NCBI GenBank assembly: GCA_016906335.1
Contig: JADEYG010000012.1
Coordinates: 1,240,501 to 1,304,500, forward strand
Direction: 5' to 3'
DNA: 64,000 bases
DNA from: Novakomyces olei
Lineage: Eukaryota; Ascomycota; Novakomycetes; Novakomycetales; Novakomycetaceae
Shown here: piece by piece, positions 55,558-57,133 of the stretch
Layout of the letters: the number at the start of each line of letters is the position of its first letter
Position numbering within the stretch: the first letter of the stretch is position 1
Notes under the pieces: generated by a model
The model's input: the letters and a program-made list of their open reading frames with translations, nothing else
The model's database searches: none
Told to the model about the DNA's origin: nothing
Position numbers and translations under genes: made by a program

Positions 55558-57133
55558 TTACTTTCCTTTCTTGCCCGGTTTCGTCTTTTTGCTCGGCCCA
55601 TTCGATCCGGCATTTTTACGTTTTTTATCGTCGCCACCTGACTTTGAAATAACGGTAAAAAATCCATCTAATCGGCCTTGTTGGGCAGTTTTAAGGTTTT
55701 TCTGTAGACGAGCAGCGCCTGATCGCACTCTGTCCTCACTGAACCCCTTTTCCTTCACTAAAAAATCAACAAGACCCTCCACATCAGGCTCCTGCCATTC
55801 TAACGTAATGTCTTCAGCATTGGAAACTTCGGCCTCGAGAAAAAGACGCTGAGCATCTCTCCAGGGCCAATCATCTGGAATTGGATGTTTACTCTTGTCA
55901 ATGTTTTCCACCACTTTTTCCAGAGACCCGTACTGCCGAATAAGCTTTAGAGCTGTATTTGGTCCGATCCCTTTGATTGGATCACAGTAGTCACAGCCAA
56001 GCAGGATACACAGATCGACAAACATGGGGAAAGACATTTCCAAGCCCCCCAAAGCCTTTTCAAGTGTAATTTCACTAATTGGCTCTTTTCGCTGTTCAGA
56101 GAAAGTGAGATGCCTCAATAAAATAGGAGCCCCAAAGCAAAGCGTGTCCATATCCTCAGAAGCAGCTGCAAAGACTTTACCTGCCTTCGCCAATGCAGCA
56201 CATTGAGCTTCTGCCTCACAGGGCGCAACGATATAAGGGATCCCCATAAGTTTCAACAGCCGCCGGCATTCTTCATTATGAACTGCAGTTACTTTAACAG
56301 TTCTTCGGGAAAATTTGTCAACCTCCTCCGCGGTTCCGGTTTCTTTTGCTTCCGTATGGGCTTTGTGAGCTTCCTGATTACGAGCAAACCGTTTGGCAAG
56401 CTATTATGTCAATTTGTAAAAATAAAACAGAATAAAATATATGTATATATATGACTTCGTCAAGAATAAAAACAACATACCTCTCCAGACTTGAGCTTTG
56501 GTGGCTTCCCGTCGAATACATAGCACGGTTTAATTCCACTGTCGACGATACGAAGCGTTCGATAAAACATGCCCATTAAATGACTTTAAGTTAGTATACA
56601 CGTAATACTCTGCCGCACCTCGTAGTTTCACCCGTATCCGACATCAACTGGGTCCCGTCTTGCTGTCGCACAGCTGAGGACAGGATTAGAACACTTGAAT
56701 ATACAAAAGATTTCATACCAACAAGAAACTGGTAAAGGCTCATTGATCTGCGTGAAAGGTGGTTTGTCAGATATAGTTGGCAAAATATAGCGCAAACAAA
56801 CGAAATAGTCATAAAACAATTCAGCGCCAATATTATTTCCCGCGAAAAGAATGCTCTCTTTTCCAGGTGAAACAATAAACCAAAACAAATCAAAACCAAA
56901 AACAATTAAAAAAAAATGGAAGTAGATATTACGCGTCCTTTTGATGTTAGCCAACCTTGAATAATCACAAAATTTGTTTACGTACAATAGCAACCTTGCG
57001 ACCAAAAAACGCCTTGATGTCATTGTTCTTGATGGCAAACCCAGCAGAGTCAGAAATGACATGCGTCAACCCTAGTTTACCGTTAAAAAATATCAAAATG
57101 TATGGTTAAAAGCAGCGTACCCTTGATGCCCAT
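55558..57133 (-). CDS. RAD27: Flap endonuclease 1
   Basis: Structure-specific 5' flap nuclease of Okazaki-fragment maturation and long-patch repair. Seven exons: 57133-57121, 57071-56986, 56937-56933 (5 nt), 56747-56719, 56673-56619, 56583-56481 and 56400-55558; introns are 49, 48, 185, 45, 35 and 80 nt. The product is 377 residues (yeast Rad27 is 382). Joins give [56 protein letters not shown] and [20 protein letters not shown]. Metal-binding acids are Asp34 (in the microexon), the FDG Asp, CEAEAQ, SEDMDT and GCDYCD. A PCNA-binding PIP box QGRLDGFF lies near the C-terminus, followed by a Lys-rich tail. All phases agree. Confidence 0.95.
56933..56937 (-). other. RAD27: 5-nt microexon of FEN1
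   Basis: GACGC is flanked by GCTAACATCAAAAG upstream and GTAATA downstream on the minus strand. It supplies codon GAC (Asp34) and the first two bases of Ala35; without it the frame and the invariant DAS sequence are lost. Confidence 0.85.

Follow-up and report, generated by a model that had tools for sequence, protein, structure and literature searches.

A predicted exon of only five nucleotides, GACGC, supplies the catalytic residue Asp34 of the flap endonuclease FEN1 in the ascomycete Novakomyces olei. An earlier note, made from the letters of this DNA alone, had proposed the exon, and the observation holds: its anatomy is read directly from the DNA and the spliced frame runs through it in phase. 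Very probably, introns of 48 and 185 nt are removed on either side of GACGC in the sole FEN1 gene that we found in this genome, leaving the five bases in place to supply Asp34, and the arrangement is probably old and shared with the Pezizomycotina. A catalytic residue of a central nuclease of replication and repair would then be encoded by an exon below the size that many gene finders can handle. Apparently for this reason, some fungal FEN1 proteins in the databases seem to hold invented active-site residues, among them a protein of Aspergillus fumigatus (P0247, 15 member sequences).

The FEN1 Gene and Its Exons

The gene lies on the minus strand (57133-55558) of the window, the term used here for the whole stretch of 64,000 nucleotides that was analyzed. 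Its seven coding exons, separated by six GT..AG introns (Table 1), join into one open frame of 377 codons and a stop in which Asp is residue 34. Besides exon 3, exons 1 and 4 are also tiny.

Table 1. Exons and introns of the FEN1 gene, in order of transcription; homologue counts refer to the best 120 homologues listed.
Feature	Position	Strand	Length (nt)	Description	Basis
Exon 1	57121..57133	-	13	ATGGGCATCAAGG; Met-Gly-Ile-Lys and one base	Spliced reading; alignment
Intron 1	57072..57120	-	49	GTACGC..CTAG	Spliced alignment, chosen by 113/120 listed homologues
Exon 2	56986..57071	-	86	Ends GTTGCTATT (Val-Ala-Ile33) at 56986, phase 0	Spliced reading
Intron 2	56938..56985	-	48	Donor ATT/GTACGT, strong; acceptor AAAAG	Reading, signal scoring
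Exon 3 (predicted microexon)	56933..56937	-	5	GACGC: Asp34 and first two bases of Ala35; directly preceded by GGCTAACATCAAAAG, directly followed by GTAATA	Route enumeration, spliced alignment
Intron 3	56748..56932	-	185	Donor CGC/GTAATA, weak; acceptor CGCAG	Reading, signal scoring
Exon 4	56719..56747	-	29	Starts ATCAATGAGC; last base of Ala35, Ser-Met-Ser-Leu-Tyr-Gln-Phe-Leu-Val, one base more	Spliced reading
Intron 4	56674..56718	-	45		Chosen by 120/120 listed homologues
Exon 5	56619..56673	-	55		Spliced reading
Intron 5	56584..56618	-	35	Branch-like CTAAC 7 nt 5' of the 3' splice site	120/120 listed homologues
Exon 6	56481..56583	-	103		Spliced reading
Intron 6	56401..56480	-	80		Chosen by 120/120 listed homologues
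Exon 7	55558..56400	-	843 with stop	Remainder of the protein, including QGRLDGFF	Spliced reading; alignment

By full-length homology and by the presence of its metal ligands, the gene is identified as FEN1 (Rad2/RAD27). Residues 1-377 of the spliced product align with residues 1-375 of chain 8yjh_D, labeled 'Flap endonuclease 1' (E 2.4e-135), which we take to be human FEN1. The C-terminal QGRLDGFF, a PCNA-binding motif, resembles QGRLDDFF in that chain. The carboxylates that bind metal in human FEN1 are given as D34, D86, E158, E160, D179, D181 and D233 in the available text of PMC6009646, where residue 181 is printed as E in one place. All seven are present in the window FEN1 as D34, D87, E159, E161, D180, D182 and D234, the first of them only if the microexon is included.

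A second FEN1 was not found in the genome, where the XPG N-terminal family PF00752 has six matches in all; the others look to us XPG-, EXO1-, MKT1- and GEN1-like rather than FEN1-like. A short way before the point where the EXO1-like gene probably starts, a long in-frame (KY)n repeat was noticed (L005/L006, contig C3, about 315,337-318,910). Rfam and tRNA scans of the window gave no matches.

Routes From Exon 2 to Exon 4

Exon 3, read as AG/GACGC/GT, is internal and 5 nt long, as befits a microexon (an internal exon of up to about 30 nt with AG before it and GT after it). The possible splices between exons 2 and 4 were enumerated. When single introns of at least 20 nt with GT-AG, GC-AG or AT-AC ends were counted, IDAS resulted from 0 of the 43 in-phase, stop-free routes, and even with arbitrary end dinucleotides no single intron between the two exons yields VAIDASMS, which bears out the earlier statement that direct joining cannot give Ile-Asp-Ala-Ser-Met. 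With two GT-AG introns of at least 30 nt each, the full conserved sequence is restored by one of 205 in-phase routes, namely the reported one through GACGC. One other two-intron route takes the same GACGC from a donor 9 nt earlier, but loses VAI. Nested removal, as in a stwintron, restored the conserved sequence in 0 of 3,212 routes. When the 238-nt interval was shuffled 20,000 times with its dinucleotides preserved, the motif itself, AG-GAYGC-GT, turned up in 14 of the shuffles.

The earlier note had suggested a comparison with the FEN1 of related species as a check. Proteins were aligned to the DNA with a spliced aligner that allows GT..AG introns of at least 25 nt at a fixed cost and has no further splice-site preference. 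With the best 120 of 6,605 FEN1 homologues as input, 118 of the 120 listed align through GACGC, choosing both of the introns around it.

Splice Signals of the Flanking Introns

A de novo search for intron signals in 264 kb (the window and 20 ten-kb stretches) gave no clear enrichment over controls, and reference introns were therefore taken from genes of ubiquitin-conjugating enzymes (UBC) in the same genome by spliced alignment with four human proteins. Of 20 UBC loci, three were dropped as repeats; among the 17 left, five were used (L030, L031, L034, L035 and L040) and the 12 others were dropped before scoring, mostly for implausible alignments. Two of the dropped loci have middling scores (L041 with one intron and L042 with five, some of them canonical-looking), and two of those used, L031 and L035, are moderate alignments with 50 and 45 identical residues. 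The five loci provided 17 introns, which together with the four other FEN1 introns make a reference set of 21.

The reference donors read GTANG in 17 of 21 cases and have G at the fifth position in 20, and a CTAAC-like branch site was recognized in 18 of the 21 introns, the nearest lying 6-12 nt before the 3' splice site. Intron 2 of FEN1 matches this picture: its donor scores 8.0, a value reached by 0.7% of the GTs in the window, and CTAAC stands at 9 nt. The donor of intron 3 has a score of -0.5, lower than any of the 21 reference donors (leave-one-out minimum -0.4) and equaled or exceeded by 44% of all GTs in the window; the nearest branch-like sequence of the intron, CTGAC, lies 19 nt before the 3' splice site as against the 6-12 nt of the reference introns.

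Tiny exons occur in this genome outside FEN1 too. The UBC13-like gene in L040 has an internal exon of 11 nt, AACACTGAAGA (contig C1, near 1359255-1359556), and the UBC9-like gene in L030 has one of 24 nt. The lowest-scoring reference donor, AGA/GTATTT, comes right after the 11-nt exon. Weak donors behind tiny exons may form a pattern here, with two cases as its basis.

Aberrant FEN1 Proteins of Other Fungi

The two homologues that do not conform among the 120, P0094 (Exophiala xenobiotica) and P0115 (Fonsecaea erecta, 'variant'), carry odd residues at the same spot, VAI-SGCVC-SMS and VAI-DAYAS-SMS. A second search with the odd stretch of P0094, which favors odd models, returned 392 matches, and the best 120 of these contained 75 new proteins. 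The pooled set of 195 FEN1-like proteins (120 and 75) is thus enriched for odd models. Between VAI and SMS, 161 of them read DA, 33 read otherwise (three among the original 120 and 30 among the 75 additions) and one, an insect protein reading DAYM, fell outside the search expression. It had been expected earlier that most gene finders would miss such a microexon, and gene finders do seem to go wrong at it, with 33 of 195 proteins in this enriched set suggesting errors.

In the 33 aberrant proteins DA is lost in 24 and kept with extra residues in nine, and the residues in its place repeatedly read as splice signals. Six start with V and then R, S or G, the residues that a GTANGT donor right after Ile33 would encode. 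Two end in KDA or QDA, which corresponds to an acceptor, AAG or CAG, that adjoins GACGC. In five the residues are DAYV or DACV, the translation of GACGC followed by GTRYGT. A final S or R, corresponding to AG before the last base of Ala35, is found in 17 of 28 (p 7e-7 against the inner residues, with related species counted that are not independent) and is missing in the other 11; the 28 leave out the two that end in DA and the single-residue changes HA, YA and DG. In five, GCV or GRV stands behind a residue whose codon can end in A, as the microexon would read out of frame, and none of 20,000 shuffles reached five such cases. The motif AG/GAYGC/GT can be spelled wholly inside the odd residues in six of the 33 (P0094, P0272, P0274, P0285, P0296 and P0310), compared with a mean of 0.36 and a maximum of 3 in 2,000 shuffling trials. 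Not counted in the six are P0266 and P0281, which can spell it only with the GT across Ala35 and Ser36.

Three of these proteins, P0272 and P0285 (both JGI) and P0310 (ENA), look as if unspliced DNA had simply been translated through. The residues of each are compatible with an initial GT, a final AG and AG/GAYGC/GT in between, and the implied pairs of introns would measure 46 and 47 nt in P0272, 49 and 50 nt (less likely 20 and 79 nt) in P0285 and 49 and 47 nt in P0310. The motif can be spelled somewhere in 112, 60 and 48 of 2,000 shuffles of P0272, P0285 and P0310, respectively. On the simplest reading, the fungi behind the aberrant models have the same 5-nt exon between two short introns, and gene finders either put spurious exons from the vicinity in its place or read on into the introns. 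The 161 proteins with plain DA do not tell whether the microexon is present or absent, and some of them, e.g., P0288 and P0002 (whose contigs have 10,853 and 7,944 bases), may stem from genes that lack these two introns. The three one-residue differences among the 33 (HA, YA and DG) could be real or could be sequencing changes.

In P0087 (Aspergillus avenaceus) and P0295 (Aspergillus phoenicis, 33 member sequences), His or Tyr stands where the catalytic Asp34 belongs. Possibly this reflects the wrong choice of microexon and not a real substitution. The list of aberrant models offers a starting point for the correction of annotations.

Order of Splicing and the Question of Control

In the mechanism that we propose, introns 2 and 3 would each be recognized as a unit (intron definition). 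Intron 2, with its strong signals, would likely be removed first, joining GACGC to exon 2, and intron 3 would then be removed from its weak donor. The microexon would be kept because skipping it, or retaining either intron, destroys the frame. As the earlier note had foreseen, skipping GACGC shifts the frame, and the product ends up with 57 residues; retention of intron 2 leads to a stop after VAIVRKQIL, and retention of intron 3 to a stop right after Asp-Ala. The note had also called the exon constitutive, which we infer from the need for D34.

Since the splicing errors tested destroy the frame, a dosage switch is possible, in which conditions alter the inclusion of the microexon and the amount of FEN1 is set by productive versus unproductive splicing. 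We regard such a switch as unlikely. Every dividing cell can be expected to require FEN1, which argues against it. The weak donor after the microexon, the only hint of a control point, finds no counterpart in the five DAYV or DACV models, where the donor reads GTRYGT. A switched microexon is on record in another ascomycete: that of Xlr2 in Trichoderma, which like the FEN1 exon was missed by the gene model, responds to glucose according to the available text of PMC11121469. However, the Xlr2 exon has 20 nt, whereas that of FEN1 has 5 nt and lies in a housekeeping gene.

Age of the Microexon

Four genera with aberrant models were looked up and fall into four classes of the Pezizomycotina: Fonsecaea (Eurotiomycetes), Trapelia (Lecanoromycetes), Epicoccum (Dothideomycetes) and Apiospora (Apiospora kogelbergensis, Sordariomycetes), the last class being represented by one model. 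A FEN1 tree was built from 25 rows, 24 of them picked from the 120 listed homologues and the remaining one being the window. In this tree the nine Pezizomycotina rows form a group (100/100) that does not include the window, whose only partner is P0002 (97/95); the deeper forks are weak. For NOB1 the nearest protein has 58% identity, and Saitoella coloradoensis comes next at 40%. These results place the fungus among the ascomycetes other than Pezizomycotina, perhaps in the Taphrinomycotina grade. If the exon in the window and that in the Pezizomycotina are homologous, it predates the split of these lineages. The garbled entries suggest that other fungi share the microexon and that gene-prediction programs often err there, a reading of conservation in which the DNA was obtained by back-translating gene models, many of them from related and so not independent species. 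It is probably an old ascomycete exon and not a quirk of this genome, and in the Pezizomycotina both flanking introns would lie at the same positions and in the same phases.

Alternatively, the microexon could be real but of separate origin, with two introns inserted five bases apart in the lineage of the window. The distance of the window from the Pezizomycotina in a tree with unresolved deep branches would allow for this, as would relatives (P0002 and P0288) that may be without these introns. However, in the read-through models the first donor comes right after Ile33 and the second acceptor right before the final base of Ala35, and both positions and both phases are those of the window. Two identical double gains are hard to expect, and we consider a separate origin quite improbable.

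Within the preferred reading of one inherited exon, it is also conceivable, although we think it very doubtful, that the exon arose early in the evolution of ascomycetes and persists as a splicing check, which, since errors in its splicing abolish FEN1, would tie the supply of this replication nuclease to the performance of the spliceosome, and that a weakening of the second donor in the lineage of the window has heightened the sensitivity of the check. That there is no microexon at all, the sequence being explained by non-canonical or nested splicing, RNA editing, an assembly error or a decayed gene copy, would suit the weak donor of intron 3 and a sequence taken from a single assembly, but is highly improbable given that single introns with any ends and nested routes alike fail to restore the conserved residues, that the rest of the 377-codon frame is intact with no second FEN1 found in the genome, and that the same exon is inferred in other fungi.

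Comparison With Known Tiny Exons

Exons this small are already known; the case in FEN1 is new, and it would be remarkably old if its conservation holds. No paper on a FEN1 microexon was found in the open-licence literature (CC0, CC BY and CC BY-SA), and the work on such small exons that we found comes mainly from animals and plants. Human MPC1 has a microexon of 4 nt which is reported to be constitutively included and which, like exon 3 of FEN1, is shorter than 6 nt and not a multiple of three (PMC9929638, available part). The introns that flank it are long and exon definition is reported there, whereas for the introns of 48 and 185 nt in FEN1 intron definition would be expected. A 5-nt exon of Drosophila Ubx is mentioned in the accessible portion of PMC8042270. 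In plants, exons of 1 nt (APC11 and VPS55) and of 5 nt (rice) are described in the available text of PMC8831610 as often misannotated. They resemble the exon of FEN1 in being tiny and missed by genome annotations, and they are conserved, as the exon of FEN1 probably is, but differ in that they were found with RNA-seq and are not fungal, and the one in FEN1 carries a metal-ligand residue.

For fungi, the characterization of microexons is called relatively limited in the part of PMC11121469 at hand, with earlier experimental tests in fission yeast only. The FEN1 gene provides an uncomplicated, perhaps ancient example on which to study how the spliceosome of an organism with short introns copes with an exon of five bases. 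The stwintrons described in the available text of PMC5639578 are similar to introns 2 and 3 of FEN1 in that two adjacent fungal introns occupy nearly one place. A stwintron leaves nothing between its parts, however, whereas FEN1 needs five coding bases to be retained.

Other Observations on FEN1 Entries

A search for relatives of FEN1 in viral contigs gave seven pattern matches, none of which was confirmed. Many fungal FEN1 proteins carry the name 'Elongation of fatty acids protein 2', an error that is spreading. Yeast ELO2 has the alias FEN1, which is apparently the reason for the name. The FEN1 protein of Heliothis virescens (P0001, 639 aa) repeats most of its FEN1 sequence, almost unaltered, at its end, likely an artefact of assembly or annotation.
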